Source: Elioraea sp. Yellowstone (lineage in GTDB: Bacteria; Pseudomonadota; Alphaproteobacteria; Acetobacterales; Acetobacteraceae). From it: a DNA stretch of 45,426 bases. The stretch is from NCBI RefSeq assembly GCF_006704265.1, contig NZ_VIKA01000011.1, positions 1 to 45,426 on the forward strand, given 5' to 3'. The notes under the pieces are model-generated. The model saw only the letters and a list, made by a program, of their open reading frames with translations. It did no database searches and had not been told where the DNA came from. The position numbers were made by a program, and so were the translations under genes. Positions 10,188-32,684 of the stretch are shown piece by piece (the first letter of the stretch is position 1; every line of letters begins with the position of its first letter).

Positions 10188-10258
10188 GGGCGGACGATAG
10201 CGGAACGCCGACCGCGGCACCATGCCGCGGCCACCGCGCTGGCACGCGGCGGCGACGC

Positions 10259-10346
10259 ATCGCGCGCGGGGCTGGTGGGGCGGCCGCGCGCGAACATGAC
10301 CCCGTACCAGCCCGCCGAAGGTCAAGCCTTCAGCGGGCTGGTATGA
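10259..10346. repeat. Partial BIME-like unit (spacer plus hairpin C)
   Basis: These 88 bases match 20706-20793 at 86 positions by eye, in the same orientation. They hold the GC-rich spacer (10261-10302) and hairpin C: arms 10305-10321 and 10327-10343 with a 5-base loop. Hairpin B is missing, so the unit is truncated at its left side. It lies in the divergent gap between the DsbA-family gene and the caspase-like gene, just upstream of an AT-rich promoter region. Confidence 0.85.
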
Positions 10347-16565: not shown

Positions 16566-17537
16566 GTGACGACACGACGGATGATTCTCGCGGCCGCGGC
16601 GGCGCTGGCGGCGGCCGGCCCGGCGCAGGCGCAGACCTATGAGATGGTGGCCGGCGCGCTCGGCGGCGGCTGGTATACCATGGCGACGGGGCTGTCGCAG
16701 ATCCTGCAGGAGAACGTGCCCGGGCTGACCATCCGCGTCGTGCCGGGCGGTGGGCTCGGCAATCCGACGCGGGTGCAGAACGGTGTCAGCCAGATCGGCT
16801 TCGGCCTCGACTTCCTCGTCTCCTCGGCGATCAAGGGCGAGGAGCCGTATCGCGCGCCGCACGACAAGATCAGCCATATCGGCGTGGGCTGGAGCCCGAC
16901 CGAGCATCACATGCTCCGCCGCACCGACGAGGGGCCGGCCGACATGAAGGCGATCCTGACCATGCGCGGACTGCGCATCGGCACGCCGCAATCGACCTCG
17001 TCCGACACGCTGACGCTGATCCATATCCTCAAGCATCTCGGTTCGAGCTTCGACAAGATCCGGGCGGATGGCGGTCGCGTGGTGCAGGGCAGCTACACCG
17101 ACATCGCCAACGCCTTCATGGACGGACAGGTGGACTACCTGTACGTGGCGCTCGCCCGCCCCGCGGCGATGGTGAACGAGATCGTGCGCGGCCGTCGACC
17201 CGCCACGCTGGTCGCCTTCCCGCAGGACATCCGCGACCACCTCTCGCGCACCTACGGATTCAGCCAGGGTGTGATCCCGGCCGGTACCTATCCCGCGCCG
17301 ATGCAGACCGGCGAGGTGCCGGTCACCACCATGGACACCGTGCTGGTCGTGCCGACGGCGATGCCCGAGGACGTCGTCTACCGGATGCTCAAGGCCGTGA
17401 TCGCCAACCGCGCGCGGCTGAAGGACATCCATCCCTCGATGGCCGCGTTCGACCCGGCGGTGGCATGCAAGTATCCCGGCGCGCCGCTCCACCCAGGCGC
17501 AAGGCGCGCCTACGCCGAAGCCGGCTGCACGCCCTGA
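16566..17537 (+). CDS. TAXI-family TRAP transporter solute-binding protein
   Basis: 323 aa from GTG 16566. A signal peptide (MTTRRMILAAAAALAAAGPA, cleavage after AQA) is followed by the TAXI-type binding domain: GALGGGWYTMATGLSQIL, VVPGGGLGNPTRV and QNGVSQIGFG. The C-terminal part contains the membrane-side partner contacts typical of these proteins. It captures a substrate in the periplasm and delivers it to the fused TRAP permease encoded next. TAXI proteins usually bind dicarboxylates or amino acids; the neighbouring cycloisomerase suggests an organic acid. A strong hairpin lies after the stop and could keep this mRNA more abundant than the permease message. Confidence 0.9.
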   Translation: MTTRRMILAAAAALAAAGPAQAQTYEMVAGALGGGWYTMATGLSQILQENVPGLTIRVVPGGGLGNPTRVQNGVSQIGFGLDFLVSSAIKGEEPYRAPHDKISHIGVGWSPTEHHMLRRTDEGPADMKAILTMRGLRIGTPQSTSSDTLTLIHILKHLGSSFDKIRADGGRVVQGSYTDIANAFMDGQVDYLYVALARPAAMVNEIVRGRRPATLVAFPQDIRDHLSRTYGFSQGVIPAGTYPAPMQTGEVPVTTMDTVLVVPTAMPEDVVYRMLKAVIANRARLKDIHPSMAAFDPAVACKYPGAPLHPGARRAYAEAGCTP

Positions 17538-17556
17538 CGCTCGTCGCCCTGCTCGC

Positions 17557-17580
17557 CGGGCCGGGATCCTTCCCGGCCCG
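17557..17580 (+). terminator. Intra-operon hairpin after the TAXI binding-protein gene
   Basis: CGGGCCGGGA, loop TCCT, TCCCGGCCCG: a perfect 10-bp stem 20 bases after the stop, with no U-tract. Such structures between binding-protein and permease genes commonly stabilise the upstream message or lower read-through. Confidence 0.5.
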
Positions 17581-17603
17581 CCCGTATTCGTAACGGCCCG
17601 CGC

Positions 17604-19565
17604 ATGCGCGAGCTTGCCGGTCCGTGGCGTGCGATCGTCTGGTTCTATGCCGCGCTGGTCGGGCTGGGGCATTTCTGGCTCGGCGGCGCGGGGCTGATGG
17701 AGCTGGTCGCGCGCGAGGGCTTCGGCGCCGGCCGCTGGACGCAGGACGTCTTCCCGGTGCTCGAGCCGCTGCAGCTGCGCGGCTTCCATCTGACCGCGCT
17801 CCTGCCGCTGATCTTCCTCCTCTATCCGGCGCTGCCGGGGCGCAGCCCGCAGGGTCGGCCGAGCCTGCCCGATCTCGTGCTGGCCGCGCTCTCGGCCGCG
17901 CCGAGCCTCTCCTTCCTCGTCCATGCGCAGCAGATCAACGCGCGGATGGAGTTCATCGATCCGCTGACGCCGGTCGAGTGGTGGCTCGGCCTCGCCGCGA
18001 TCCTGACGCTGCTCGAGGCGATCCGCCGCGCGGTCGCACCGATCCTGGCCGGCATCGTCGTCGTGTCGCTGATCTACATGTATGTCGGCCACTGGATGCC
18101 GGGCGTGCTCAACACGCGGCCGTTCGATGTCGCGATGATCATCGAGACCGCCTACATCGTGCCGATCGTCGGCGGTATCTTCGGCCCGCTCACCGGCATC
18201 GTCGCCGGCACGATCGCGATGTTCATCCTCTTCGGCGCCTTCGTGCAGGGCTCGGGCACGGGACGGCTGTTCTCCAATTTCGGTGCGGCCGTCGCCGGAC
18301 GCTTCGCCGGCGGGCCGGCCAAGGTCGCGGTGATCACCTCGGGCCTGTTCGGCACGATGAGCGGCTCGACCGTCTCGAACGTCGCGACCACGGGCTCGAT
18401 CACTATCCCGATGATGAAACGTCTCGGCTACCCGGCCGCGGTCGCGGGCGGGATCGAGGCGGCGGCGAGCACCGGAGGCGCGATCATGCCGCCGGTGATG
18501 GGCGCGGCCGCGTTCGTGATGGCCGAGATCACCTCGATCCCCTATGGCGACATCATCCTCGCCGCGGCGATCGGCGCGGTGCTCTACTTCTTCGCGATCT
18601 TCGTCTCGGTGCATTTCGAGGCGAGGCGGCTCGGCCTCGCGGCGATGGAGCCGGAAACGATCCCCGGCTGGCGGGTGGTCGCGCGCGATGCGCATCTGGT
18701 CGTGCCGATCGCGGTGCTGGTGTGGCTGCTGGTGGCGCGCTGGTCCGGCAACTTCGCCGCCTTCGCCGCGACCGTGCTGATGATGGTCTGCGCCGCGCTG
18801 CGTCCGCACACGCGCATGGGGCCGCGCGCGATCGGCGACGCCTTCGCAAGCGCCACGCAGACCATGGCCGTGCTCGCCGCCGCCGTGGCGGGGGCCGGAA
18901 TCATCACCTCGGCGCTGACGGTGACCGGCTTGGTCGTCGCCTTCGGCGGCATCGTCAAGGGATTGGCTGGCGGCAGCCTTGCCCTGCTCTGCGTATTGCT
19001 GATGCTGACCGCGCTGATCCTGGGCATGGGCGTGCCGACGACGCCGGCCTACATCATCACCGCGGCCCTCGGCAGCCCGGTGCTGCAGGAATATGGCGTC
19101 GATCTGCTCGCCGCGCACCTCTTCATGTTCTATTTCGCGGTGCTGGCGGACGCGACGCCGCCCGTGGCAGTGGCGTCCTACGCCGCGGCGGCAATCGCGG
19201 GGGCGAACCCGATGGCGACGGGCGTGCAGGCGCTGCGCTTCGCGCTCGCTGGCTTCGTGGTCGGCTACGCCTTCATCTACGACCAGGGAATCCTGCTGCG
19301 CGGAGGCCTCGTCACGATCGTCGAGGACACGGTGACGCTGATCGCCGCGCTCACGCTCGCCGGCGCCGCGTTCGGCGGTTTCTTCCGTGCCCGACTGTCG
19401 ACATGGGCGCGTGCGGTCGCGCTTGCCTGCGGCCTGGGCGCGGCCTTCGGCCACATGGTCTCCGACCATGCGCGGCTCGGCTTCGTGCTGGTTGTGCTCG
19501 CGGTCTTCTGGCTGATGCCGGGACCGTTCTCCGCGCGGGAGGTGCGCCATGCCGGACCTGGTTGA
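17604..19565 (+). CDS. Fused TRAP transporter permease (4TM + 12TM type)
   Basis: 653 aa with about 16-18 hydrophobic segments. The N-terminal third corresponds to the small DctQ-like part and the rest to DctM. Landmarks include GPLTGIVAGTIAMFILFGA, SGSTVSNVATTG (SGS motif region), GGIEAAASTGGAIMPPVMGA and LGMGVPTTPAYI, all characteristic of the fused 'TRAP-T 4TM/12TM' family that pairs with TAXI binding proteins. Transport is driven by a sodium or proton gradient. The stop overlaps the following enzyme gene by 17 bases, linking uptake to metabolism. Confidence 0.93.
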   Translation: MRELAGPWRAIVWFYAALVGLGHFWLGGAGLMELVAREGFGAGRWTQDVFPVLEPLQLRGFHLTALLPLIFLLYPALPGRSPQGRPSLPDLVLAALSAAPSLSFLVHAQQINARMEFIDPLTPVEWWLGLAAILTLLEAIRRAVAPILAGIVVVSLIYMYVGHWMPGVLNTRPFDVAMIIETAYIVPIVGGIFGPLTGIVAGTIAMFILFGAFVQGSGTGRLFSNFGAAVAGRFAGGPAKVAVITSGLFGTMSGSTVSNVATTGSITIPMMKRLGYPAAVAGGIEAAASTGGAIMPPVMGAAAFVMAEITSIPYGDIILAAAIGAVLYFFAIFVSVHFEARRLGLAAMEPETIPGWRVVARDAHLVVPIAVLVWLLVARWSGNFAAFAATVLMMVCAALRPHTRMGPRAIGDAFASATQTMAVLAAAVAGAGIITSALTVTGLVVAFGGIVKGLAGGSLALLCVLLMLTALILGMGVPTTPAYIITAALGSPVLQEYGVDLLAAHLFMFYFAVLADATPPVAVASYAAAAIAGANPMATGVQALRFALAGFVVGYAFIYDQGILLRGGLVTIVEDTVTLIAALTLAGAAFGGFFRARLSTWARAVALACGLGAAFGHMVSDHARLGFVLVVLAVFWLMPGPFSAREVRHAGPG

Positions 19566-20667
19566 ACGGATGGAGGTGCTCCGGATCGACAGCGAGATCG
19601 CGATGCGCCGGGCGCACGGTTCCGGCGCGATCGCGCGCCGCGTGGGGCGGGTGATCCTGCGCCTGCTGACCGCCGACGGCATCGAGGGGCTCGGCGAAGC
19701 CGCGCCCTGGGCCCCGTTCGGCAACACCGCCGACACCACGGCGGCCGCGATCGACGGGCCCCTGCGCGCGGTCGTGGAGGGCGCGGACGCGACCCGCATC
19801 GCCGCGCTCGTCGAGGCGATGGACCATGCGCTGATCGGCCATCCGGAGGCGAAGGCCGCGGTCGAGATGGCGCTCTGGGACATCGCCGGGAAGCGGCTCG
19901 GCGTGCCGGTGCACGCGCTGCTCGGGGGCGCGGTGCGCGAGACGATCCCGCTCTCGTTCTCGATCGCCGACCCCGATTTCGCCGCAGATCTCGACCGGGC
20001 GCGCGCGATGGCCGGGCAGGGGATCGGCATCTTCAAGGTCAAGACCGGCTTCCTCACCCATGCCGACGATCTCGACCGGCTCTCGGCGCTGCGCGAGACC
20101 TGCCCGGCCGCCGACATCCGTGCGGACTACAACCAGGGCTTGGCACCCGAGGAGGCGCTGCGCCTCTGCCGCGATCTCGATCCCCTCGGCCTCGGCTTCA
20201 TCGAGCAGCCGGTCCGCCGCGGCCAGGAGCGGGTGCTGGCGCTGATCGCCGCTGCGCTGGACACGCCGGTGATGGCGGATGAGAGCGTCTACTCCGCGCG
20301 CGAGATGCTGGACTGCGCGCAGGCGGGCTGGGCGGACTGCGTCTCGATCAAGCTGATGAAGGCGGGAGGGATCCTGCGCGCGCGCGAGGCCGACGCGGTG
20401 GCGACCGCCGCCGGCATCCCGACCTATGGCGGCACGCTGTGGGAGGGCGGGATCGCTCTTGCCGCCGCCGCGCACCTGATCGCGGCCTCGCCCAACATCC
20501 GGCTCGGCTGCGAGTTCTACATGCCGCGCTACGTGCTGGCGCGCGACGTCACGGCCGAACCGTTCCCCTACGAGGGGGGGGCGGTGCGCGTGCCGGACGG
20601 GCCCGGCCTCGGTGTGACGCTCGACGAGGAGACGTTGAGGGCCGATCTGGTCGCCGCGCGCGGCTGA
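19549..20667 (+). CDS. Enolase-superfamily enzyme of the muconate cycloisomerase/racemase subgroup
   Basis: 372 aa from ATG 19549, with GGGAGGT upstream. Catalytic KxK (Lys163 and Lys165, FKVKTG), metal ligands Asp193 (RADYN), Glu219 (FIEQP) and Asp244 (ADES), and the opposite-face Lys268 (SIKLMKAGG) are intact. The C-terminal GTLWEGGIALAAAAHL and LGCEFYMP match muconate lactonising enzymes, not dipeptide epimerases, which carry a D-x-D there. It could be a cycloisomerase, a racemase or an N-acylamino acid racemase-like enzyme. Overlap with the TRAP permease suggests that it acts on the imported acid. The TGA stop is part of a palindromic repeat. Confidence 0.85.
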   Translation: MPDLVERMEVLRIDSEIAMRRAHGSGAIARRVGRVILRLLTADGIEGLGEAAPWAPFGNTADTTAAAIDGPLRAVVEGADATRIAALVEAMDHALIGHPEAKAAVEMALWDIAGKRLGVPVHALLGGAVRETIPLSFSIADPDFAADLDRARAMAGQGIGIFKVKTGFLTHADDLDRLSALRETCPAADIRADYNQGLAPEEALRLCRDLDPLGLGFIEQPVRRGQERVLALIAAALDTPVMADESVYSAREMLDCAQAGWADCVSIKLMKAGGILRAREADAVATAAGIPTYGGTLWEGGIALAAAAHLIAASPNIRLGCEFYMPRYVLARDVTAEPFPYEGGAVRVPDGPGLGVTLDEETLRADLVAARG

Positions 20668-20797: not shown

Positions 20798-21139
20798 TCA
20801 GAACAGCCGTCCGCCGTCCGGCACCGGGAAGTCGGGGCGCACCAGCACCACACCGCCGTTCTCGTCGGGGAAGCCCAGCACCAGGAACTGGCTCTCGAAC
20901 CCGGCGATGCGCTTGGGCGGGAAGTTCACCACGCCGGCGACCTGGCGGCCGATCAGCGCGTCGGGCTTGTAGTGCACCGTGAGCTGCGCCGAGGTCTGGC
21001 GCGTGCCGATCTCCGGGCCGAAATCGACCCAGAGCTTGAGCGAGGGCTTGCGCGCCTCCGGGAAGGGCTGCGCGTCGATGACCGTGCCGACGCGGATCTC
21101 CACCCGCTCGAAATCCTCCCAGGCGATCGTCTCGGCCAT
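20798..21139 (-). CDS. csaA: CsaA-like tRNA-binding protein
   Basis: 113 aa from the ATG at 21139, with GGAGGAG upstream. This is a single OB-fold EMAP/Trbp111 domain: FERVEIRVGTVIDAQPFPEA, LKLWVDFG, ...IGRQVAGVVNFPPKRI and the C-terminal DENGGVVLVRPD. CsaA binds tRNA and has reported chaperone-like activity in protein export. The length is normal. It is divergent from the SDR gene and convergent with the cycloisomerase gene across a palindromic repeat. Confidence 0.9.
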   Translation of the reverse strand: MAETIAWEDFERVEIRVGTVIDAQPFPEARKPSLKLWVDFGPEIGTRQTSAQLTVHYKPDALIGRQVAGVVNFPPKRIAGFESQFLVLGFPDENGGVVLVRPDFPVPDGGRLF

Positions 21140-21458
21140 GTGCTCCTCCCGGTTCGCGTCGATCATCCACAGCGCGCGCCGCATGTCACGTCTCGACGCG
21201 CGTGGCGTTCGCGTGCGCCGCGGACGGAGCCGGCGCAGGGGAGGATGGCGGTCGCCGGGTCCCGGCGGGGAGCCGTCCCGCATCTCCCGCCGCCGCGTGC
21301 GGCCGCCCCGGCCCTCCTGGCGGCGGCCGCGGCGGTACAGCCCCGTTCGCCGGCGGCGGGCACGATCAGCCCCACCCGCTTCAGGGTGGACGGTGGCTGG
21401 ACCACCCGGCAGCCCCGTGGCATCACGATCCCATCACCGCAGGGGAGCAAGTCCAGCC
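21140..21458. other. 319-bp intergenic region between csaA and the SDR gene
   Basis: No gene is supported here. The region must hold the divergent promoters of csaA and the SDR-led cluster, but I see no convincing boxes. The only clear structure is the pair of competing hairpins at 21372-21407. An AGGGGAG ribosome-binding site precedes the SDR start. Confidence 0.4.
21372..21407 (+). promoter_or_regulatory. Two mutually exclusive small hairpins in the SDR leader
   Basis: CCACCC (21372-21377) can pair with GGGTGG (21384-21389), and GGTGG (21392-21396) with CCACC (21402-21406). The middle GGGTGG can instead pair with CCACCC 21402-21407. This gives two alternative folds 52 bases before the start. 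It may be attenuator-like, or chance in GC-rich DNA. Confidence 0.25.
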
Positions 21459-22247
21459 ATGGCCGTTGCCTCGTCCGAGACCCGGGTTCCGACCACGCCC
21501 AGCTTCCGGCTGGACGGCAAGCGGGCGCTCGTGACCGGGGCCTCGCGCGGGCTCGGCCGGGCGATCGCGATCGCCTTCGCCGAGGCCGGGGCCGAGGTGG
21601 TGCTGGCGGCGCGCGCGAAGGACGAGATGGACGCGACGGTCGCGGCGATCGCCGGCCGCGGGCTGCCGAGGGCGGTCGCGGTCGCGCTGGACGTGACGGA
21701 TCGCGCCGCGGTGCGCCGCGTCGTCGCCGGGGCGGGACCCTTCGACATCCTGCTCAACAACGCCGGCACGAATATCCGCGAGCCCTTCCTCGAAGCCCAG
21801 GACGCCTCCATCGATGCGCTGCTCGACCTGAACGTGCGCGCCGCCGTGACGGTGGCGCAGGCGGTGGCGCAGGGCATGGTCGCGGCCGGCAAGGCAGGTG
21901 CGATCATCAACCTCTCCTCCGTGAACGGTCATGTTGCGGGTGTGAACCGATCCGTCTACACCGCCACCAAGCACGCGATCGAGGGGCTGACCAAGGCGAT
22001 GGCGGTGGAGCTCGGCCCGCACGGCATCCGCGTCAACGCGATCTGTCCCACCTTCATCGAGACGCCGCTGACCGCCGGGCTGCTCGGCGATGAGGCGTTC
22101 CTGACCCGGATGGTGCGTGCGATCCCGCTCGGCCGGATCGGCCAGGTGGAGGACGTGATGGGCGCCGCCGTGTTCCTCGCCTCGCCGGCGGCGGCGCTGA
22201 TCAACGGCGCCAGCCTGCTGATCGACGGCGGGATGACCTGCCTCTGA
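21459..22247 (+). CDS. Short-chain dehydrogenase/reductase (SDR)
   Basis: 262 aa. Classical SDR motifs: TGASRGLG cofactor loop (26-33), NNAG, the catalytic Ser in INLSS, and Tyr167-x-x-x-Lys171 (YTATK). The C-terminal GASLLIDGGMTCL is the standard end. The cofactor loop with Arg after TGAS suggests NADP(H) preference, by family rule. The gene is the first of a run on the plus strand that continues with GGT, macro-domain, amidase and nitrile hydratase genes; 23 bp separate it from GGT. It probably reduces a carbonyl or oxidises an alcohol, but the substrate is unknown. Confidence 0.92.
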   Translation: MAVASSETRVPTTPSFRLDGKRALVTGASRGLGRAIAIAFAEAGAEVVLAARAKDEMDATVAAIAGRGLPRAVAVALDVTDRAAVRRVVAGAGPFDILLNNAGTNIREPFLEAQDASIDALLDLNVRAAVTVAQAVAQGMVAAGKAGAIINLSSVNGHVAGVNRSVYTATKHAIEGLTKAMAVELGPHGIRVNAICPTFIETPLTAGLLGDEAFLTRMVRAIPLGRIGQVEDVMGAAVFLASPAAALINGASLLIDGGMTCL

Positions 22248-22270: not shown

Positions 22271-23869
22271 ATGCGCGACTTCCACCTTCCCGGCCGCAGC
22301 CCCGCGCGGGGGGTGAACGGCATGGCCGCGACCTCGATGCCGGTAGCGACGCTCGCCGCGCTCGACATCCTGCGCTCGGGCGGCAATGCGCTCGACGCCG
22401 CGGTCGCTGCCTGCGCGGTGCTCTGCGTGGTCGAACCGCAATCCACCGGCATCGGCGGCGACTGCTTCTGCCTCTACGCGCCCGCGGGCTCGAACGAGGT
22501 GATCGCCATGAACGGCTCGGGCAAGGCGCCGGCCGCGGCGACGATCGACTGGTTCGAGGCGCAGGGCATCACCGCGCTCGATCCCCGCAGCGCCCATGCG
22601 GTGACGATCCCCGGCGCGGTGCGGGCCTGGGAGGCGCTGCTCGCGAGGCACGGCCGCAAGGGCCTCGACGCCGTGCTGCAACCGGCGATCCGGCTCGCCG
22701 AGGAGGGCCACCCGGTGCATGACCGCGTGGCGTGGGACTGGGCGGCGGCACGCGACAAGCTCGCGGCCGACCCCGACAGCCGCGCGCGGTTCCTGCACGA
22801 CGGCGCGGCGCCGAAGCCGGGCGAGGTGTTCCGCCAGCCGGAGCTCGCCGCAACCTTGCGCGCGATCGCCAAGGACGGGGCGAAGGCGTTCTACGAGGGT
22901 GCGATCGCCGCGGACATGGTGGCGAAGCTGCGCAGCCTCGGCGGGCTGCACACCGAGGAGGACTTCGCCGACGCCACCGCCGAGTTCGTCACCCCGATCC
23001 GAGGCACGTTCCGCGGCTACGAGGTGGTGCAGTGCCCGCCCAACGGCTCCGGCCTGATCGCGCTGATGCTCATGGGCGTGCTCGACCGGCTGGAGCCGGC
23101 CGCGGAGGCGATGTCGGCCGAGCGCTGGCACGCCGCGATCGAGGCCGGGCGGCTGGTCTACCGCGACCGCGATGCGTTCCTCGCCGATCCGGCGCAGGAG
23201 AAGGTCGAGGTCGAGCGGCTGCTGTCGCCCGACTATCTCGCGGCACTCGCGCGCACGATCGACCCCGAGCGGGCGATGCGCGAGCTCCCCCCCGCCGGCA
23301 TGGCGGAGATCCTGCCCGCCCACGCGGACACCGTGTATCTCTGCGTGGTCGATGGCGAAGGCAACGCGTGCAGCTTCATCAACTCGCTGTTCGAGGGGTT
23401 CGGCTCGGGCATCCTGGCGCCGAAGTCCGGCGTGATGCTGCACAACCGCGGCTTCGGCTTCCGGCTCGAGCGCGGCCATCCGAACTGCATCGCGCCCGGC
23501 AAGCGGCCGATGCACACGATCATTCCTGGCATGGTGATGCAGGACGGCCGCGCGGTGATGCCCTATGGCGTGATGGGCGGGCACTACCAGCCCTTCGGCC
23601 ATGCGAGCGTGCTCGCCAACCTGTTCGACCACGGCATGGACGTGCAGGAGGCCCTCGATGCGCCGCGCCTGTTCCCGCGCTCGGGCGCGGTGGAGGTGGA
23701 GCGCGGCATCCCGCCGGCGACCGTGGATCGGCTCGCGCGCCTGGGCCACACGCCGAGGCTCGCCGAGAAGCCGCATGGCGGCGGCCAGGCGATCTGGATC
23801 GACCACAGGAACGGCTCGCTCGTGGGCGCGTCCGATCCGCGCAAGGATGGCTGCGCGATGGGGTTCTGA
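22271..23869 (+). CDS. Gamma-glutamyltransferase-family protein (YwrD-like, divergent)
   Basis: 532 aa Ntn-hydrolase precursor. The self-cleavage/nucleophile Thr is Thr354, in ADTVYLCVVDGEGN, which aligns with the TTHYSVVD segment of E. coli GGT. The small-subunit region contains FGSG and a PMHTIIPGM loop. No export signal is evident, unlike periplasmic GGTs. The substrate-carboxylate motif R-E-x-AP of glutathione-active GGTs is replaced by NGSGKAP, as in the YwrD/acylase-like branch, so glutathione hydrolysis is doubtful. The next gene starts directly after its stop. Hydrolysis of a gamma-glutamyl or other amide compound is the best general guess. Confidence 0.85.
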   Translation: MRDFHLPGRSPARGVNGMAATSMPVATLAALDILRSGGNALDAAVAACAVLCVVEPQSTGIGGDCFCLYAPAGSNEVIAMNGSGKAPAAATIDWFEAQGITALDPRSAHAVTIPGAVRAWEALLARHGRKGLDAVLQPAIRLAEEGHPVHDRVAWDWAAARDKLAADPDSRARFLHDGAAPKPGEVFRQPELAATLRAIAKDGAKAFYEGAIAADMVAKLRSLGGLHTEEDFADATAEFVTPIRGTFRGYEVVQCPPNGSGLIALMLMGVLDRLEPAAEAMSAERWHAAIEAGRLVYRDRDAFLADPAQEKVEVERLLSPDYLAALARTIDPERAMRELPPAGMAEILPAHADTVYLCVVDGEGNACSFINSLFEGFGSGILAPKSGVMLHNRGFGFRLERGHPNCIAPGKRPMHTIIPGMVMQDGRAVMPYGVMGGHYQPFGHASVLANLFDHGMDVQEALDAPRLFPRSGAVEVERGIPPATVDRLARLGHTPRLAEKPHGGGQAIWIDHRNGSLVGASDPRKDGCAMGF

Positions 23870-24376
23870 ATGCCGCTGCGCGCCTGGCAGGGCGACATCA
23901 CCACGCTCGACCTCGACGCGATCGTCAACGCGGCGAACGAGCACCTGCTGCCGGGCGGCGGAGTGTGCGGCGCGATCCACCGCGCCGCCGGGCCGGAGCT
24001 CTGGGAGGCCTGCCGCCCCCTTGCGCCGGTGCGCACAGGGCAGGCCGTGATCACGCCCGGATTCCGGCTCAAGGCGCGGCACGTGATCCATGCGGTCGGC
24101 CCGGTGTGGCACGGCGGCGGGGCAGGGGAACCCGGGCTCCTCGCCTCCTGCTACCGCGCGAGCCTCGCGCGGCTGCGCGCGGCGGGGCTCCGCTCGATCG
24201 CCTTCCCCGCGATCTCCACCGGCATCTACGGCTATCCACCCGACCAGGCGGTGCGCGTCGCCGTGCGCGCCGTGCGCGAGGACCTCGCCGCGCAGGGCGA
24301 GGTCGACGTCACCTTCGCCTGCTTCGACCGCACGACGTACGATCTCTACCGGACCGAACTCGGGGAAACGCCATGA
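23870..24376 (+). CDS. Macro-domain ADP-ribose deacylase (MacroD/YmdB-type)
   Basis: 168 aa, one complete macro domain. Landmarks: WQGDITTLDLDAIVNAAN (ADP-ribose-binding Asp and Asn), LPGGGVCGAIHRAAGP, CRPLAPVRTGQAVITPGF, VIHAVGPVW and SIAFPAISTGIYGYP. These are all features of the MacroD group that removes ADP-ribose from acidic residues or deacetylates O-acetyl-ADP-ribose. The start directly follows the GGT stop, and its own stop overlaps the amidase start (ATGA). It is therefore tightly built into an amide-catabolism operon, an odd place for an ADP-ribose enzyme. The coupled frame argues against accidental neighbours. Confidence 0.92.
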   Translation: MPLRAWQGDITTLDLDAIVNAANEHLLPGGGVCGAIHRAAGPELWEACRPLAPVRTGQAVITPGFRLKARHVIHAVGPVWHGGGAGEPGLLASCYRASLARLRAAGLRSIAFPAISTGIYGYPPDQAVRVAVRAVREDLAAQGEVDVTFACFDRTTYDLYRTELGETP

Positions 24377-25872
24377 CGGATACCGCGCTCTGCGACCTCA
24401 CCGCGATCGAGCTCCGCCGCCTGATCGGGCGCAAGGCGATCAGCCCGGTCGATCTGCTCGATGCCTGCCTGAAGCGGATCGAGGCGGTGAACCCTGCCAT
24501 CAACGCGATCGTGGCGATGGACGAGAAGGCCGCGCGCGAAGCCGCACAGGCGGCGGAGAAGGCGGTGATGGCCGGGGCGACGCTCGGCCCGCTGCACGGC
24601 CTGCCGCTCGGCGTGAAGGATCTCGACGAGACGAAGGGACTGCGCACCACCTATGGCAGCCGCCAGTTCGAGACCTTCGTCCCCGAGGCCGATTGCGGCA
24701 TGGTCGCCAATCTGCGCGCCGCCGGCGCGGTGGTGCTCGGCAAGACCAATGTGCCGGAGTTCGGTCTCGGCGCGAACTCGGTGAACCCGGTCTACGGGCC
24801 GACCGGCAATCCGTTCCGCCCGACGCACAACGCCGCCGGCTCCTCGGGCGGTTCGGCCGCAGCACTCGCCACCGGCATGGTACCGATCGCTACCGGCTCC
24901 GACACGGGCGGCAGCTTGCGCAACCCGGCCGCCTATTGCGGCATCGTCGGCTACCGCCCGACGCCCGGGCTCGTGCCCTCGGAGAAGCGCGGGCTCGGCT
25001 GGACGCCGCTCTCGGTGCTCGGGCCGATGGCGCGCACCGTGCCCGATCTCGCGCTGATGCTCTCGGCGATGGCGGCGGACGATCCGCGCGATCCGCTCTC
25101 CGGCCCAGTCGACCCGACATCGTTCCATCCTCTCAGGGAGATCGACCCGGGCACACTGCGCGTCGCGGTGACGGAGGATTTCGGCTTCTGCCCGACCTCG
25201 CAGGAGGTGCGCGGCCTGTTCCGGGATCGGATCGGCCGCATCCGCCACGTGTTCGGCACCGTGGCCGAGGCGAGCCCCGACATGACCGGCGCCGATGACG
25301 CCTTCGCCGTGCTGCGCGCGGAAGGCGTGCTCGCCAGGCATCTGCCGGCCTATCGCAGCAGGCGGCATGTGCTCGGCCCCAATGTCATCGCCAATGTCGA
25401 GGAGGGGCTCAGATACACGCTCGAGGATCACGCCCGCGCCCATGCCGCGCAGACCGCGATCGCGCGGCGCTTCCACGCCTTCTTCAAGGACTTCGACCTG
25501 ATCATCACCCCCGGCATGACGGTCCAGCCCAGGCCCTGGACCGAGCTCGCGCCGATGGAGATCGACGGAGTGAAGCTCCGCTCCTACTACCACTGGCTGG
25601 CCCTGCCCTACGCCGTCACCCTCGCCGGCCATCCGGCGATCATCCTGCCCTGCGGGGTGGATGCGAACGGCCTGCCCTTCGGCCTGCAGATCGTCGGGCC
25701 GCGCCGGGGAGATGCGTTCCTGCTCGCCGCGGCAGCCGCGATCGAGCGGGCGACGGCGCGGATCGAGCGCTGCGGCCGGCCGATCCCCGATCTCGAGGCG
25801 CTCGCCAAGGCGCCGCCGATCCACACCCTTCCCGGGGCGGACATGCTGGCGCATGTCGGGCGGGCGGCCTGA
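24373..25872 (+). CDS. Amidase (amidase-signature family)
   Basis: 499 aa. The Ser-cisSer-Lys triad is complete: Lys82 (LGVKD), cis-Ser157 (AGSSGGS) and nucleophile Ser181 (GSDTGGSLRNP). The gene overlaps the macro-domain gene by four bases and lies 38 bp before the nitrile hydratase-like genes. It would hydrolyse an amide to the acid and ammonia, the second step of the nitrile hydratase/amidase route. Other amidase-signature enzymes (Glu-tRNA amidotransferase A, allophanate hydrolase) are less likely because no gatB/gatC or urea genes are present. Cytoplasmic. Confidence 0.92.
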   Translation: MTDTALCDLTAIELRRLIGRKAISPVDLLDACLKRIEAVNPAINAIVAMDEKAAREAAQAAEKAVMAGATLGPLHGLPLGVKDLDETKGLRTTYGSRQFETFVPEADCGMVANLRAAGAVVLGKTNVPEFGLGANSVNPVYGPTGNPFRPTHNAAGSSGGSAAALATGMVPIATGSDTGGSLRNPAAYCGIVGYRPTPGLVPSEKRGLGWTPLSVLGPMARTVPDLALMLSAMAADDPRDPLSGPVDPTSFHPLREIDPGTLRVAVTEDFGFCPTSQEVRGLFRDRIGRIRHVFGTVAEASPDMTGADDAFAVLRAEGVLARHLPAYRSRRHVLGPNVIANVEEGLRYTLEDHARAHAAQTAIARRFHAFFKDFDLIITPGMTVQPRPWTELAPMEIDGVKLRSYYHWLALPYAVTLAGHPAIILPCGVDANGLPFGLQIVGPRRGDAFLLAAAAAIERATARIERCGRPIPDLEALAKAPPIHTLPGADMLAHVGRAA

Positions 25873-25910: not shown

Positions 25911-26219
25911 ATGAGCGAGACCGATCGAGGCCATCACGACATCGGCGGCGATCCCGCCGGCCCGGTGCCGCGCGCGGAGCACGTGCTCGCGCCGTGGGAG
26001 AAGGAGGTGGACGCGATCCGCACCGTGCTCGGCCAGAAGGGGCTGATGTCGGCGGACAAGCTGCGGCTCGGCATCGAGCAGCTGCCGGCCGAGGACTACC
26101 GCCGCCTGAGCTACTACGAGCGCTGGCTCGCCAGCATCGCCTGGACCATGGAGAAGGACGGGGTGATCCCGCCCGGTTCCTTCGCCGCGCGCGTCGCGGC
26201 CCTCGAGGCGAAGCGGTGA
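25911..26219 (+). CDS. Nitrile hydratase/thiocyanate hydrolase-type subunit equal to the N-terminal half of NHase beta
   Basis: 102 aa. The sequence matches the N-terminal half of nitrile hydratase beta: an HDIGG start, VLAPWEKEV, then LRLGIEQLP with Arg52 (an active-site Arg in NHase beta) and YRRLSYYERWLASI. The protein then stops, whereas ordinary beta subunits run on to about 220 aa. The second half is the next gene, overlapping by four bases (GTGA). Thiocyanate hydrolase and toyocamycin nitrile hydratase are known three-subunit enzymes with this split. It contains the PWE motif shared with activator proteins, but the R-x-G-I-E and SYYERW segments place it with the catalytic subunit. Confidence 0.82.
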   Translation: MSETDRGHHDIGGDPAGPVPRAEHVLAPWEKEVDAIRTVLGQKGLMSADKLRLGIEQLPAEDYRRLSYYERWLASIAWTMEKDGVIPPGSFAARVAALEAKR

Positions 26220-26524
26220 GCGCGCGCTACGCGCCCGGCGCGACGGTGCGCGTCGCGCGCGACCGCCCCGCGATCAGCCTCGGCCGGCAGCACATCCGCA
26301 CGCCGCACTACGTGCGCGGGCTCGCCGGCACGGTCGCCGAGGTGATGGGGCCGTTCCGCAACCCCGAGGGGCTCGCGGTCGGCGAGGACGGGCTGCCGGA
26401 GCAGGTGCTCTATCGCGTGCGCTTCCCGCTCCGTTCGGTCTGGGACCAGTACGACGGCGATCCCTCGGACACCGTCGATGTCGAGCTGTACGAGCACTGG
26501 CTGGAGCCGGCCCATGCCGCATGA
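26216..26524 (+). CDS. Nitrile hydratase/thiocyanate hydrolase-type subunit equal to the C-terminal half of NHase beta (SH3-like)
   Basis: 102 aa from GTG 26216. It carries the SH3-like C-terminal domain of NHase beta: FAPGATV-like opening (RYAPGATVRVA), RTPHYVRGLAGTV with the conserved Arg near the metal site, and VDVELYEHWLEP at the end, matching the usual 'idLWE.YLEP'. It begins inside the previous stop codon and overlaps the following metal-subunit gene by 11 bases. The three products should assemble as one complex, with this part covering the cobalt site. Equal length of the two halves (102 aa each) suggests a stable split, not a recent nonsense mutation. Confidence 0.82.
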   Translation: MSARYAPGATVRVARDRPAISLGRQHIRTPHYVRGLAGTVAEVMGPFRNPEGLAVGEDGLPEQVLYRVRFPLRSVWDQYDGDPSDTVDVELYEHWLEPAHAA

Positions 26525-27137
26525 CGGGCCGCACCATCACGGGCACGACCACGCGCCCGACGATCCGTCCTTCGGGTCGCGGGCCGCCCTGGGCGCGCGG
26601 GCGCTGCGCGAGCTGCTGGAGGAGGCGGGCGTGCTCGCGCCGGGCGAGGTCGCGCGCCAGGTCGAACGGATGGACACGATCACGCCTGCGCTCGGCGCCA
26701 AGGTGGTGGCGCGCGCCTGGACCGATCCGGACTTCAAGGCGCGGCTGCTCGCCGACGGCAGCGCCGCGGTGCGCGAGTTCGGCGTGGAGATGGGGACGAC
26801 CCCGCTCTACGTCGTCGAGAACACCGAGTCCGTGCACAACATGATCGTCTGCACGCTGTGCAGCTGCTACCCGAAGCCGCTGCTCGGCATCCCGCCCGAC
26901 TGGTACAAGAGCTTCGAGTACCGCTCGCGCGCCGTGCGCGAGCCGCGCGCGGTGCTCGCCGAGTTCGGCGTGCGCCTGCCGGACGGCGTGGCGGTGCGCG
27001 TGCACGACAGCACGGCCGATCTGCGCTATCTCGTGCTGCCGCGCCGTCCGGAGGGGACCGAGGGATGGGACGAGGCGCGGCTGGCCGGACTGGTCACGCG
27101 CGACTGCATGATCGGCACGGCCGTTCCGTCGGCCTGA
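26514..27137 (+). CDS. Cobalt-type nitrile hydratase alpha / thiocyanate hydrolase gamma subunit
   Basis: 207 aa from ATG 26514. The metal-binding claw is VCTLCSC (Cys113, Cys116, Cys118); Thr114 marks the cobalt-type, and two of the Cys are oxidised in known enzymes. Other family landmarks: GAKVVARAWTDPDFKARLL, VVENTESVHNM and GIPPDWYKS. The first 15 residues are His-rich (PHDGPHHHGHDHAP), able to bind metal. The enzyme hydrates nitriles to amides; thiocyanate is an alternative substrate for this three-subunit form. An amidase gene lies upstream. No activator/metallochaperone gene is adjacent. Nitrile versus thiocyanate cannot be decided from sequence alone. Confidence 0.88.
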   Translation: MPHDGPHHHGHDHAPDDPSFGSRAALGARALRELLEEAGVLAPGEVARQVERMDTITPALGAKVVARAWTDPDFKARLLADGSAAVREFGVEMGTTPLYVVENTESVHNMIVCTLCSCYPKPLLGIPPDWYKSFEYRSRAVREPRAVLAEFGVRLPDGVAVRVHDSTADLRYLVLPRRPEGTEGWDEARLAGLVTRDCMIGTAVPSA

Positions 27138-27168: not shown

Positions 27169-28350
27169 ATGTCATGCACCCGACGGGATCTGCTCGGCGC
27201 TTCGGCCGCCGTGCCATTGGCGCTTGCGACACCGGCGCTCGCGCAGTCCGGACCGATCCGGATCGGCATGATCACCACGTTGTCAGGCCCTGGGGCAGCG
27301 CTCGGCAACGACATCCGCGACGGGTTCAACCTGGTGGTCAAGAACGCCGGCGGGCGGCTGGGCGGGCTGCCGGTCGAGGTGGTGATCGCGGACGACGCGC
27401 TGCGTCCCGAGAACGGCCGCGCGATCGCGGAACGCATGGTGCGGCGCGAGCGCATCCAGGTGCTGACGGGAATCGTGTTCTCGAACGTGATGCTGGCGGT
27501 CGCGCCGGTGGTTCTGCCGGCCGCCACCTACATCAGCGCCAATGCCGGGCCGAGCCAGCTCGCCGGCGAGGCATGCCACGCGAACTACTTCAACGTCGCC
27601 TGGCAGAACGACAACCTGCACGAGGCGGTGGGCCAGTACGTCACGCAGCAGGGCAAGCGGCGCGCCTATCTCGTGGCGCCGAACTACCCCGCCGGACGGG
27701 ATGCGCTGACCGGATTCAAGCGCTTCTTCAGGGGCGAGGTGGTCGCCGAGCAGTACACGCGGCTCGATCAGCTCGACTACGCGGCCGAACTCGCGGCGAT
27801 CCGCACTGCGGGTCCCGAGGCCGTCTACATCTTCCTGCCCGGGGGCCTGGGCATCAACTTCATCAAGCAATACGCAGCCGCAGGCTTGCGCGAGCGGGTG
27901 CCGCTCTACGGGCCGGGCTTCAGCTTCGACCAGGACGTGTTCCCGGCGGTGGGCGAGGATGCGCTCGGCTGCTTCAACTCCTCGCAATGGGCGCTCGACC
28001 TGCCGGTGCCGGCGAACCGCCAGTTCGTCGATACCTTCGAGCGCGAGTACGGCCGGCTGCCGAGCCTCTACGCCAGCCAGGGCTACGACGCGGCGCTGCT
28101 GATCGGCTCGGCGATCGCGGCCACGCGCGGGCGCGTGGGCGACCGGGCGGCGTTCGCGGCGGCGCTGAAGAGGGCCGATTTCCAGTCGGTGCGCGGCAGG
28201 TTCCGGTTCGGCAACAACAACCACCCGATCCAGACCATCTACATGCGGGAGGTGGTGAAGGACGAGAAGGGCCGGATCGTGAACAGGACGATCGGCACGG
28301 CGTTCGAGGACCACCAGGACGCGTATGCGGCGCAGTGCAAGCTGACGTGA
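27169..28350 (+). CDS. Branched-chain amino acid/amide-type ABC transporter substrate-binding protein
   Basis: 393 aa with a twin-arginine-type signal (TRRDLLGASAAVPLALATP, cleavage near AQS) and a type-I periplasmic binding fold: IRIGMITTLSGPGAALGNDI, ISANAGPSQLAG and YDAALLIGSAI. Ligand class: Liv-type proteins bind branched amino acids, urea, amides or aromatic acids. A GAGGGGGA site precedes ATG 27169. Placed 31 bp after the nitrile hydratase alpha-type gene, it probably captures that enzyme's substrate or a related amide. A perfect hairpin follows its stop. Confidence 0.9.
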   Translation: MSCTRRDLLGASAAVPLALATPALAQSGPIRIGMITTLSGPGAALGNDIRDGFNLVVKNAGGRLGGLPVEVVIADDALRPENGRAIAERMVRRERIQVLTGIVFSNVMLAVAPVVLPAATYISANAGPSQLAGEACHANYFNVAWQNDNLHEAVGQYVTQQGKRRAYLVAPNYPAGRDALTGFKRFFRGEVVAEQYTRLDQLDYAAELAAIRTAGPEAVYIFLPGGLGINFIKQYAAAGLRERVPLYGPGFSFDQDVFPAVGEDALGCFNSSQWALDLPVPANRQFVDTFEREYGRLPSLYASQGYDAALLIGSAIAATRGRVGDRAAFAAALKRADFQSVRGRFRFGNNNHPIQTIYMREVVKDEKGRIVNRTIGTAFEDHQDAYAAQCKLT

Positions 28351-28494: not shown

Positions 28495-29415
28495 ATGGAT
28501 TCCCTTCTCCTCCTCGAACAGGCGCTCAACGGCCTCACCCTCGGGGTGATGCTGTTCCTGATGGCGGCCGGCCTCACGCTGATCTTCGGCGTGATGGGTG
28601 TGATCAACCTGGCGCACGGCTCGCTCTACATGATCGGCGCCTTCGCGGGCGCGACCGTCACGGCACGCACGGGCTCCTTCGCGCTCGGCATGCTGGCCGG
28701 CATGGCCGCGAGCGCGCTCGTTGCACTCGCGCTCGAATTGACCCTGATCCGCCGCCTCTACGCGCGCGACCATCTCGATCAGGTGCTCGCCACCTACGCG
28801 CTGATCCTGATCGCCAACGAATCGGTGAAGATCGTCTGGGGGCCGCAGCCGATCTTCCTCGGCACGCCCGAGGCATTCGGCGGCAGCGTCGAGATCATCC
28901 CCGGCGTTCCGTACCCCGCCTACCGGCTCGCGATCATCGGCACCGGCCTCGCGGCGGCGGCGTTCCTCTGGTGGCTGATCGCGCGCACGCGGCTCGGCAT
29001 GCTGATCCGCGCAGGCACCACGCATCGCGCGATCGTCCAGGCGCTCGGCGTGAACATCCAGGCGCTGTTCGCGCTGGTGTTCGCGATCGGCGGCGCGCTC
29101 GCGGGGCTCGCCGGCATGATGGCGGGGCCGCTGCTGGCGGTTCAGGTGGGCATGGGCGAGCAGATCCTGATCCTGACCTTCGTCGTCGTGGTGGTCGGCG
29201 GGCTCGGCTCGGTGCGCGGGGCGATGGCGGGCGCCGTGCTGGTGGGGCTGGTCGATACGCTCTCGCGCGCCGTGCTGCCGGTGGCGGTGCGCGAGGTGCT
29301 GCCGCCCTCGGCGGCCGACCAGGTGGCGGCGAATCTCGGGGCGGTCGCGGTCTATCTGCTGATGGCCGTGGTGCTGGCGATCCGGCCCCAGGGACTGGTG
29401 CCGCGCCATGCGTGA
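28495..29415 (+). CDS. livH: Liv-type ABC transporter permease (LivH-like)
   Basis: 306 aa with about eight membrane segments. Conserved family segments: LTLIFGVMGVINLAHGSLYM near the N-terminus and the cytoplasmic EAA-like loop near ALGVNIQALFALVF; the C-terminal IRPQGLVPR is standard. It pairs with the LivM-like permease, whose start overlaps its stop by eight bases. The hairpin region between the binding-protein gene and this start may set a lower expression level. Confidence 0.9.
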   Translation: MDSLLLLEQALNGLTLGVMLFLMAAGLTLIFGVMGVINLAHGSLYMIGAFAGATVTARTGSFALGMLAGMAASALVALALELTLIRRLYARDHLDQVLATYALILIANESVKIVWGPQPIFLGTPEAFGGSVEIIPGVPYPAYRLAIIGTGLAAAAFLWWLIARTRLGMLIRAGTTHRAIVQALGVNIQALFALVFAIGGALAGLAGMMAGPLLAVQVGMGEQILILTFVVVVVGGLGSVRGAMAGAVLVGLVDTLSRAVLPVAVREVLPPSAADQVAANLGAVAVYLLMAVVLAIRPQGLVPRHA

Positions 29416-30412
29416 GCCGGCGCCGCCGCATGTGCGCCGCGGCTGGATCGCGGCGCAGGCGGGACTTGCCGTCCTGGTGGCCGCCCCGTTCGTCCTGACC
29501 GCCCTCGACCGCGCCTGGCTCCTGCCGACGCTGACGCGCATGCTCGCCTACGGGCTCGGCGCGGCGGCGCTCGATGTCGTGCTGGGCTATGGCGGGCTCG
29601 TGAGCTTCGGCCATGGCGCGTTCCTCGGCACTGGCGCGTATGTCGCCGGGGCGCTGATCCATCATGCCGGCGCGGCCACGCCGCTCCTACGCTGGCCGGT
29701 GGAGATCGACGGCAGTCTCGACGCCCTGATCGCCTTCCCGGCGGCCGCGCTAGCCGCCGGCGCGCTCGCCTTCCTGATCGGCGCGGTGAGCCTGCGCACG
29801 CGCGGCGTGCACTTCATCATGATCACGCTCGCCTTCGCGCAGATGGTCTATTTCCTCGTCCTCGCGATCCCGGAATACGGCGGCACGGACGGGCTGATGC
29901 TGCCCGCGCGGCATCGCCTGTTCGATCTCCCGCTGGACGGCGACCAGCCGCTCTACTGGGTCGCCCTCGTGCTGCTGGTGGGTTTCCTCACGATCGCGCA
30001 GCGCAGCATGGAGGCGCGGTTCGGGCTCGCGCTCCGCGGCGCGCGGCAGAACGAGCGGCGCATGCGTGCGCTGGGCTATCCCGTGTTCCGCATCCGCCTC
30101 GTCGCCTTCACCATCTCGGGTGCTGTGGCGGGGCTCGCCGGCGCGGTGCTCGCCAACCAGGCCGGCTTCGTCTCGCCCGATCTCCTGTCGTGGCAGCGTT
30201 CGGGCGAGCTGATCATCATGGTGATCCTGGGCGGGCAGGGGACGCTGTTCGGCCCGGTGCTCGGCGCCTTCGCGCTCCTTCTGCTCGAGGAGGAGCTCTC
30301 CGCCGTCACCGAGCACTGGATGCTGGTGCTCGGGCCGCTGCTGCTCGCCTGCGTGCTGTTCTTCCGGCGCGGCCTCTGGGGCCAGGTCGTGCGGGCGCCC
30401 GCGCATGGCTGA
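29408..30412 (+). CDS. livM: Liv-type ABC transporter permease (LivM-like)
   Basis: 334 aa with about 8-10 membrane segments. Conserved motif GYGGLVSFGHGAFLGTGAYV near residues 59-78, VSLRTRGVHFIMITLAFAQM, and the cytoplasmic loop with MRALGYPVFRIRLVAF. It forms the translocation pore together with LivH. Its stop overlaps the livG start by eight bases, matching the other junctions of this operon. Confidence 0.92.
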   Translation: MREPAPPHVRRGWIAAQAGLAVLVAAPFVLTALDRAWLLPTLTRMLAYGLGAAALDVVLGYGGLVSFGHGAFLGTGAYVAGALIHHAGAATPLLRWPVEIDGSLDALIAFPAAALAAGALAFLIGAVSLRTRGVHFIMITLAFAQMVYFLVLAIPEYGGTDGLMLPARHRLFDLPLDGDQPLYWVALVLLVGFLTIAQRSMEARFGLALRGARQNERRMRALGYPVFRIRLVAFTISGAVAGLAGAVLANQAGFVSPDLLSWQRSGELIIMVILGGQGTLFGPVLGAFALLLLEEELSAVTEHWMLVLGPLLLACVLFFRRGLWGQVVRAPAHG

Positions 30413-31152
30413 GCCGCTGCTGCAGGTCGAGCGGCTGAGCAAGCGTTTCGGCGCGCTCGCTGCGGTCGCCGACGTCTCGCTCGATCTCGTCTCCGGAGAG
30501 TGCCACGCGGTGATCGGGCCGAACGGCGCCGGCAAGACGACGCTGCTCGCGCTGATCGCGGGCGAGATCCTGCCCGATGCGGGCCGCGTCGCCTTCGCCG
30601 GCGAGGATGTGACGCGGCTCAAGGTGTCGCGCCGCGCCCTGCGGGGCCTCGGCCGCACCTTCCAGCTCACCCAGCTCTGCGCCGAGTTCTCGGCGCGGCG
30701 CAACGTGATGCTGGCGGTGGAGGCGCGCGTCGGCACGCCGTTCCACTTCCTCCGCCGCGCCGACAGCCTCGCGACCCTGGCCGCGCGCGCCGACGCCGCG
30801 CTGGTGATGGCGGGGTTGGCCGAGCGCGCGCATGTCCCGGCGGGCCTGCTGAGCCACGGCGAGCAGCGCCAGCTCGAGCTCGCGGTGGCGATGGCGGCGC
30901 GCCCGCGCGCGCTGCTGCTCGACGAACCCGCCGCCGGGCTCGGCCCGGCCGAGACCGCCGAGATGGCCGCACGGCTCGCGGCGCTGAAGGGCAGGGTGGC
31001 GATGCTGCTGGTGGAGCACGACATGGACACCGTGTTCCGCCTCGCCGACCGCATCACCGTGATGGCCGAGGGGCGCGTGATCGCTTCCGGCGCGCCCGAC
31101 ACGATCCGCGCGGATGCCGCCGTGCGCGAGGCCTATCTCGGCGAGATCGCCG

Positions 31153-31160
<8 letters not shown>
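30405..31160 (+). CDS. livG: Liv-type ABC transporter ATPase (LivG-like)
   Basis: 251 aa from ATG 30405. Walker [10 protein letters not shown]-loop GRTFQLTQLC, a signature segment in LLSHGEQRQLELAVA (the usual SGG is SHG, a common variant in this class), Walker B LLLDEPAAGLGP, H-loop VEHDMD. It is one of the two ATPases of the importer and overlaps its partner by eight bases. Confidence 0.92.
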
Positions 31161-31832
<672 letters not shown>

Positions 31833-31836
<4 letters not shown>

Positions 31837-32684
31837 CGATGGGCGATCCCGGATACGGCTGGCTCGAGAAGCAGTACGCGACCGTCACGGCGGTGCCCGA
31901 CTTCCCGGCGATCGACGCGCGCTGGGCCGATGCCATGGCGGCAGCGCTCGCCGCGCATCCGCCGCGCGTCCTGCCCTATGGCGAGGGCGAGCGGCGCGCG
32001 ATCGACGTCTATCTGCCGCCGGGCGTCAGCGATCCGCCCGTGCTGGTGTTCATCCACGGCGGCTACTGGCAGCTCCGGCACCGGCGCGATGTCGCCTGGA
32101 TCGCGACACCGTGGCTTGCGCGCGGTGTCGCGGTGGCGATGCCCGGCTATCCGCTCTGCCCCGAGGTCAGCCTCGCCGCGCTGATCGAGGACGTGCGGAC
32201 CGCGATCGCCGCGCTCTGGCGGGAGGCGCCTTCGCTCGGGCTCTCGCGGCGCTGGCTGGTGGGAGGGCACTCCGCTGGCGGGCATCTCGCCGCGACGCTG
32301 GCGGCGACCGACTGGGCGACCCGCGGGCTTGCGGATCTCCGCTTCGTCGGCGTGCTGCCCTCGTCGGGGGTGTTCGAGCTGCCGCCGCTGCTCGCGACCT
32401 CGCTGAACGTCGCGTTGCGGCTCGACCTCGCCGAGGCGACGCGGCTCTCGGCGCTCTATCTCGTCCCGCCCAGGGGGCTGCGCGTGATCGCGGCGGTGGG
32501 CGGGGCGGAGAGTGCCGAGTTCCTGCGCCAGACCCACGGCTTCGCGCGCCGCTGGGCGCAGCAGGGCGCGGCGGTGGCGGCCCTCGAGCTGCCCGGCCGC
32601 AACCACTTCACCGCGCAGGACGCCTGGGCCGAGCCGGACGGGGCGCTGTTCGCCGCCGCCTGGGGGCTCCTGCACGCACGCTAG
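31833..32684 (+). CDS. Alpha/beta hydrolase, arylformamidase-like
   Basis: 283 aa. Oxyanion motif HGGYW (75-79), nucleophile elbow GHSAGG (Ser147), and the likely catalytic His258 in GRNHF. HGGYW with GHSAGGHL is typical of kynurenine formamidase and other formamide/ester hydrolases of this group. ATG 31833 overlaps the livF stop, so it is the last gene of the importer operon; a link with formamide or amide breakdown is plausible. There is no signal peptide. Its stop overlaps the end of the convergent AbrB-type gene by four bases. Confidence 0.85.

Follow-up and report, generated by a model that had tools for sequence, protein, structure and literature searches.

Positions 25911-27137 of the window (here the whole stretch of 45,426 nucleotides analysed, from the alphaproteobacterium Elioraea sp. 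Yellowstone) hold three overlapping, co-directional genes which, by open reading frames and Pfam matches, encode the N-terminal half of a nitrile hydratase (NHase) beta subunit (beta-N), its C-terminal half (beta-C) and an alpha subunit. With a probability of about 0.7, we read them as an activator-free, three-subunit cobalt NHase that feeds the adjacent amidase. Beta-N, beta-C and alpha would form one Co(III) enzyme in which alpha holds the metal in the motif C-T-L-C-S-C, and maturation would need no dedicated activator, beta-N probably acting as the chaperone as well, like AnhD in Streptomyces canus. The hydratase would convert a nitrile to its amide, which the amidase would then hydrolyse, while a Liv-type importer may bring the nitrile or the amide into the cell. 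The three-gene, activator-free layout is known from S. canus AnhDEA, a published and active nitrile hydratase (PMC7329996, available text), so that the split itself is not new. What sets the window enzyme apart from AnhDEA, judged from sequence, is its own branch, a lysine in the pocket and a conserved amide/nitrile cassette. No paper bringing Elioraea and nitrile hydratase together was found in the literature searched around this architecture.

All three proteins exceed their Pfam cut-offs and are encoded side by side on one strand, which places them in the NHase family (Table 1). The beta-N and beta-C genes overlap by 4 nt, and beta-C and alpha by 11 nt; the alpha start at 26514 is a chosen one, the longest ATG open reading frame beginning at 26478. 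Beta-N matches positions 2-95 of the full beta model TIGR03888 and beta-C positions 136-226, so the break falls in the interdomain linker and the linker is absent; fused betas have 25-44 residues between the two domain matches (53 pairs). In place of a single beta protein above 152.2 bits, as the TIGR03888 equivalog calls for, the window gives half-matches of 53.2 and 53.0 bits, which is what a split beta should give. Alpha, the one NHase alpha in the host genome, scores above the NHase equivalog TIGR01323 (263.6 bits against a cut-off of 249.85) and carries CTLCSC at residues 113-118. Beta-C contains the motif HIRTPHYVRG, and the conserved arginine of beta-N is R52.

Table 1. Genes of the one-strand cassette run in the window
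Feature	Position	Strand	Basis
SDR oxidoreductase, first conserved cassette gene	21459..22247	+	named from sequence; start not fixed, open reading frame 20979-22247
GGT-family Ntn hydrolase	22271..23869	+	PF01019, 497 bits; TIGR00066, 371.6 bits, above cut-off
Macrodomain protein, between GGT-like gene and amidase	23870..24376	+	PF01661, 151 bits; NF001664, above cut-off
Amidase-signature amidase	24373..25872	+	PF01425, 331 bits
Beta-N, N-terminal half of NHase beta subunit, 102 aa	25911..26219	+	ATG start; PF21006 (NHase_beta_N), 63.5 bits, above cut-off; TIGR03888
Beta-C, C-terminal half of NHase beta subunit, 102 aa	26216..26524	+	GTG start; PF02211 (NHase_beta_C), 62.5 bits, above cut-off; TIGR03888
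Alpha subunit, Co-type, 207 aa, CTLCSC	26514..27137	+	PF02979 (NHase_alpha), 267 bits, above cut-off; TIGR01323
Liv-type periplasmic substrate-binding protein (LivK)	27169..28350	+	PF13458, 267.5 bits; best PDB sequence match 4evq
Liv-type permease (LivH-like)	28495..29415	+	PF02653, 127 bits
Liv-type permease (LivM-like)	29408..30412	+	position and translation; homologue beside LivH in L032, L033, L113, L114
Liv/Urt-type ATPase (LivG-like)	30405..31160	+	best NCBIfam model UrtD, 215.7 bits, below cut-off
Liv/Urt-type ATPase (LivF-like)	31150..31836	+	UrtE, 201.6 bits, below cut-off; start chosen, open reading frame from 31114
Alpha/beta hydrolase, last conserved cassette gene	31833..32684	+	PF20434 / PF07859, above cut-off

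A frameshift artefact was rejected as the origin of the split, because relatives keep it and selection acts on both halves. The same arrangement occurs in E. tepidiphila (locus L032), the nearest named relative, whose alpha is 88-89% identical to the window alpha, and in an Elioraea metagenome-assembled genome (MAG; L033). Against these two, dN/dS is 0.12-0.17 for beta-N, 0.13-0.26 for beta-C and 0.16-0.24 for alpha. The three genes give higher values (0.33-0.57) against a pair of genomes from another genus with 70-75% identity, and dN/dS is below 1 in all comparisons made. An earlier note on this DNA had described beta as two 102-aa genes with overlapping junctions beside a cobalt-type alpha with CTLCSC, and had named a beta gene that is really one frame as the observation that would overturn it. 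The open reading frames, the Pfam matches and the TIGR03888 halves agree with its description, and the split is kept not only in the relatives but in 76 of 150 loci surveyed.

For this survey, profiles were used to assign layouts at 173 loci; 24 locus ids (repeat entries for one place, and the truncated L050, L090 and L173) were dropped and the window was added, giving 150 de-duplicated rows. Because loci were collected for their similarity to the window alpha, the layout counts are not natural frequencies: beta-N/beta-C/alpha in 76 rows (window included), alpha/beta/activator in 40, the rotated order beta-C/alpha/beta-N in seven, beta/alpha/activator in seven, beta-N/beta-C/alpha/activator in seven, alpha/beta in six, a beta-N–alpha fusion in four, alpha/beta-N/beta-C/activator in two and alpha/beta-N/beta-C in one. 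Layout tracks the tree, with nine changes for nine states against a shuffled mean of 66.9. The rotated loci (L008, L011, L012, L013, L046, L049 and L061), found in the host's family, Rhizobiales and Paraburkholderia, form one clade (100/99). Two loci (L029 and L135) keep the classical order but with beta split (alpha, beta-N, beta-C, activator); in the alpha tree they fall on the side of the fused betas, and perhaps represent a separate re-splitting at the same linker.

A PF21006 profile search found no activator gene in the host genome, which has a single match to PF02979 and a single one to PF21006, namely beta-N. This absence is informative because the same profile caught eight of eight activator-like neighbouring genes used as a control. 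Six further three-gene genomes gave nine PF21006 matches, each to a beta-N gene or within a beta-N–alpha fusion. The idea that beta-N is itself the activator was rejected, as it matches TIGR03888 and not the activator model TIGR03889. The latter model is matched above cut-off by two activators beside classical NHases; the activator-like gene of L109, a locus resembling thiocyanate hydrolase (SCNase), does not match it. A second candidate, a histidine-rich alpha N-terminus that offsets the missing activator, was likewise rejected: the median number of histidines is 5 in alpha/beta/activator rows versus 1 in beta-N/beta-C/alpha rows. As for metal supply, a search with PF03824 (NicO) found no Co/Ni importer of that family in the host genome, a point against the cobalt reading. 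Separately, the three-gene NHase of the Streptomyces L051-like type is followed at a short distance by a NicO-like metal transporter (HX4DH-type by eye; L174 11380-12510, L175 11521-12639). In S. canus, the AnhDEA enzyme is described in the available text as having no activator gene, with AnhD acting as the chaperone (PMC7329996).

The position of the enzyme within the family was examined with a concatenated alpha, beta-N and beta-C tree (406 columns) of 71 of the 150 rows, hand-picked to cover the groups. A branch with 100/100 support divides 48 rows from 23. On the larger side are the window clade (6 rows), SCNase-like (4), rotated (7), beta-N–alpha fusion (4), Rubrobacter (5), Streptomyces L051-like (3) and other split-beta rows (19); on the smaller are 17 fused-beta forms and six AnhDEA-like Streptomyces split rows. 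A quick tree of alpha only, with all 150 rows, gives a matching division of 74 versus 76 (SH-aLRT 97). The window clade comprises the window, L032, L033, L004, L005 and L006 with support of 100/99, and its attachment point within the 48-row side is less sure (89/91). All six of its rows carry VCTLCSC, the conserved beta-N arginine and the beta-C motif HIRTPxYxRG in the motif table. A union of all split forms was not rejected (p 0.198) and the tree is unrooted, so the data leave room for one split or one fusion event. The window's side (48 of the 71 rows) includes the SCNases and no identifiable characterised nitrile hydratase, so the assignment to nitriles rests on the family models and on context.

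Among known systems, AnhD-AnhE-AnhA of S. canus CGMCC 13662 has the same architecture, with beta in two short pieces, the order beta-N, beta-C, alpha, no activator gene and the cobalt motif (PMC7329996, available text). AnhD-Glu56 and AnhE-His21, reported as important in AnhDEA in the part of the source available (PMC13243292), have counterparts in E56 and H26 of the window by a reading of the motifs. That the window enzyme is an AnhDEA orthologue, simply the three-subunit NHase of Streptomyces carried by an alphaproteobacterium, would account for the same gene order without an activator gene and agrees with the union of split forms not being rejected, but we regard it as quite unlikely, since the AnhDEA-like clade lies across the 100/100 branch, together with the fused-beta NHases. 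This clade was identified through the published anhD forward primer, S. canus itself not being among the data. The primer sequence matches 18 of the 20 AnhDEA-like rows with three or fewer mismatches, five of them exactly; a stray match with three mismatches in E. tepidiphila (minus strand of L032 and of its copy L112, outside the NHase genes) is taken as chance. Further, the AnhDEA-like rows have leucine, isoleucine or valine at the pocket position in 20 of 20 cases instead of lysine or arginine, and phenylalanine before the conserved beta-N arginine, where the window has leucine. The amidase/Liv cassette is likewise the window's and distinguishes it from AnhDEA. ToyJKL, the toyocamycin nitrile hydratase, is another three-subunit NHase according to the text available (PMC7329996, PMC12648386). 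At one Streptomyces locus examined as a possible toyocamycin site, L185, no toy genes were recognised by eye; it holds an alpha with a pocket tryptophan, cut by the contig end, and then one beta-N-like gene.

The earlier note had pointed to the likeness to thiocyanate hydrolase and three-subunit NHases, rightly so; the SCNase chains and AnhDEA show the same split. The beta, alpha and gamma chains of SCNase (PDB 2dd4) correspond to beta-N, beta-C and alpha of the window. A window enzyme that is itself an SCNase, a three-subunit cobalt enzyme converting SCN- to COS and NH3, would fit this three-way split, the shared side of the 100/100 branch, the cationic Lys121 at the position of Arg136, and the second-best TIGR03887 (SCNase gamma) score among the 58 phylum genomes with a match. 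That score, however, is about 211-212.1 bits, below the cut-off of 291.45, whereas the Mycobacterium locus L077 reaches 394.9 bits; no genome among the 398 of the phylum is over the cut-off. In the PDB, alpha matches NHases best by sequence (240-209 bits), with the SCNase gamma chain at 176. A single clade of the window and the SCNase-like rows was rejected (AU p 0.0015), and the latter group with the rotated and L051-like rows instead (100/99). The seven SCNase-like loci (L077, L079, L080, L082-L084 and L109) come from Mycobacterium and Nocardia; L077 was scored with TIGR03887 and the other six were assigned by clade, with support of 100 for all seven rows in the alpha tree and 100/100 for four rows in the concatenated tree. 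They have a fourth, activator-like gene in seven of seven cases, while none was found in the window's genome, and the context of the window is an amidase and a Liv importer. Finally, both pocket arginines are replaced in all six window-clade rows, by leucine and lysine. Membership of the SCNases was therefore rejected, and thiocyanate hydrolysis is an unlikely function of this enzyme. The phylogeny against NHases and SCNases that the earlier note had proposed as a check thus bears out its suggestion of a separate branch.

The two pocket positions deserve a closer description. Beta-Arg90 and gamma-Arg136 of SCNase play a role in selectivity. The window has L51, which precedes R52, at the position of beta-Arg90 (alignment-based SCNase numbering), and leucine is found there in six of six window-clade rows; SCNase-like rows have arginine at both positions (7/7). 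Lys121 of the window alpha, directly after CSCYP, occupies the position of SCNase gamma-Arg136 and of the NHase tryptophan. The residue is lysine throughout the window clade (6/6) and arginine in all SCNase-like (7/7), Rubrobacter (9/9), rotated (7/7), fusion (4/4) and L051-like (3/3) rows and in 36 of 38 other split rows, the exceptions being lysine (L037) and threonine (L068). Tryptophan occupies it in 34 of 40 alpha/beta/activator rows (the rest being four phenylalanines, one histidine and one valine), in all alpha/beta (6/6, there after CSCTA) and beta/alpha/activator (7/7) rows, and in the three remaining rows. The PDB holds exchanges of this residue, with arginine in SCNase 2dd4 and tryptophan in 3vyg, and with tryptophan in the P. 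thermophila NHase 1ugp and arginine in 3vyh; these exchanges were reportedly made to study selectivity. The classical two-subunit Co-NHases (PDB 1ire, 3qxe) share with the window the alpha domain, CTLCSC, both beta domains and a passing TIGR01323 score; unlike them, the window has a split beta that has lost its linker, no activator, and lysine for tryptophan in the pocket. Taken from the charge of Lys121 only, an anionic (carboxylate-bearing) nitrile is a speculative candidate for the substrate; this lysine is the one hint at the new substrate that the earlier note had suggested.

The three genes form part of a one-strand run of SDR, GGT-like, macrodomain, amidase, beta-N, beta-C, alpha, LivKHMGF and alpha/beta hydrolase genes (Table 1). 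The amidase, which lies 38 nt upstream of beta-N and adjoins it in relatives too, is predicted to catalyse the next step, amide to acid and NH3; among the best 25 of its 26 NCBIfam matches, no model is over cut-off. The order amidase, beta-N, beta-C, alpha, Liv is common to the window, the Elioraea loci L032 and L033 (whose contig ends in LivG) and two loci of a second genus (L113, L114), and a locus of a third genus (L115) keeps the cassette without Liv. The amidase upstream and the Liv importer downstream that the earlier note had named are both real (PF01425, PF13458, PF02653), and the conserved cassette supports the nitrile or amide catabolic context that it had proposed. SDR and GGT-like homologues are present in the relatives' cassettes, and the alpha/beta hydrolase occurs in L032, L113, L114 and L115. 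The macrodomain gene is also in L033 and L115, and is not listed in L113 and L114 (second genus) or in L032/L112 of E. tepidiphila. In the one aligned piece at ~8000-9229 of L112, the amidase is covered only from residue 178 on, and a frameshift in the amidase/macrodomain region of that assembly is possible. The cassette was found in three (L032, L113 and L115) of 41 neighbour-clustered split-beta loci, several of them short contigs; the context is thus clade-specific, as the other 38 are without it. Parts of it recur elsewhere: an SDR gene stands in L066 together with an opposite-strand amidase and in L120 together with a GGT-like gene, and L116 carries a GGT-like gene. Among PDB sequences, LivK is closest to 4evq, 4zpj, 4ey3, 4evs and 4f06, some of which are binders of aromatic acids. 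Just upstream of the run, at 16566-20667, lie a TAXI-type TRAP transporter and a muconate-cycloisomerase-like enzyme of the enolase superfamily, with homologues in E. tepidiphila (L112).

The cassette adds three hydrolases (GGT-like, amidase, alpha/beta hydrolase) and a macrodomain to the hydratase, as might be expected if the enzyme acted on a non-nitrile cassette substrate and nitriles were not physiological. Genome G045 could be read in the same way: its cassette survives, but at 8931-9666 of L194 has an intact orphan beta-C open reading frame and only remnants of beta-N (~25 codons, weak, E 0.005) and alpha (~50 codons, E 1e-5, 38-43% identity), so that a cassette can persist without hydratase activity from its own locus. 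To our knowledge, however, no member of the NHase fold acts on non-nitrile substrates other than SCN-, and we consider such a substrate very improbable. The GGT-family protein (22271-23869) reads GKRPMHT at the site where GGTs carry a Ser-Ser pair, and may be an amidohydrolase instead of a gamma-glutamyltransferase; the host genome has five PF01019 matches. Gamma-glutamyl-cyanoalanine, suggested by the GGT-like gene, is a weak candidate substrate. The macrodomain protein, matched by NF001664, a model of O-acetyl-ADP-ribose deacetylase, sits in what otherwise looks like a catabolic cassette.

A chimeric query over 397 genomes of the host's family matched 224, and 20 of the 397 encode beta-N and alpha in one open reading frame (L199-L218); the host genome has no such fusion. 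No beta-C was found beside the fusions in the 2.4-4.0 kb loci L199-L218, nor in 20-kb neighbourhoods of L123, L124 and L125 at a relaxed threshold. The fusion at L123 spans 9348-10322. Another, outside the 20, spans 6845-7843 of L062, from a Rubritepida MAG whose genome has two PF02211 matches. The fusions may thus represent either a beta-C-less NHase or one that borrows its beta-C. Nineteen of the 20 genomes have four or five matches each and so, by match counts, NHase genes beyond the fusion; in 17 of them a second alpha was seen, and G964 and G976 rest on the counts. A separate beta-C is shown directly in six of the 20, by one PF02211 match each in G095, G045, G154, G176 and G125 and by a beta-C match of the chimeric query in G860. 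The twentieth fusion genome is G045, in which the dN/dS of the orphan beta-C against G125 is 0.19 (5-95% 0.11-0.31), similar to that of the amidase (0.20). Tentatively, and with rather more doubt than belief, one may propose that the split made beta-C exchangeable and that the fusions borrow the beta-C of three-gene loci, the window clade being one donor lineage with its lysine pocket and perhaps an anionic nitrile as substrate. The 20 genomes are not independent, as they are confined to four genera, and chance company is common, since 204 of the 377 non-fusion genomes also have NHase matches. Further, beta-C would look equally constrained if the loss in G045 were recent; yet the alpha remnant is much decayed.

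The requirement for an activator is a practical obstacle for NHases as industrial catalysts. An apparently activator-free group that comes in three small, separable pieces would offer a simpler platform and a test of metal insertion. The two sides of the family differ in the residue that follows CSCYP, and exchange structures exist in both directions (3vyg, 3vyh), so the lysine enzyme makes the choice between nitrile and thiocyanate directly testable. If beta-C is indeed shared in trans, subunit exchange in NHases would be a natural process.
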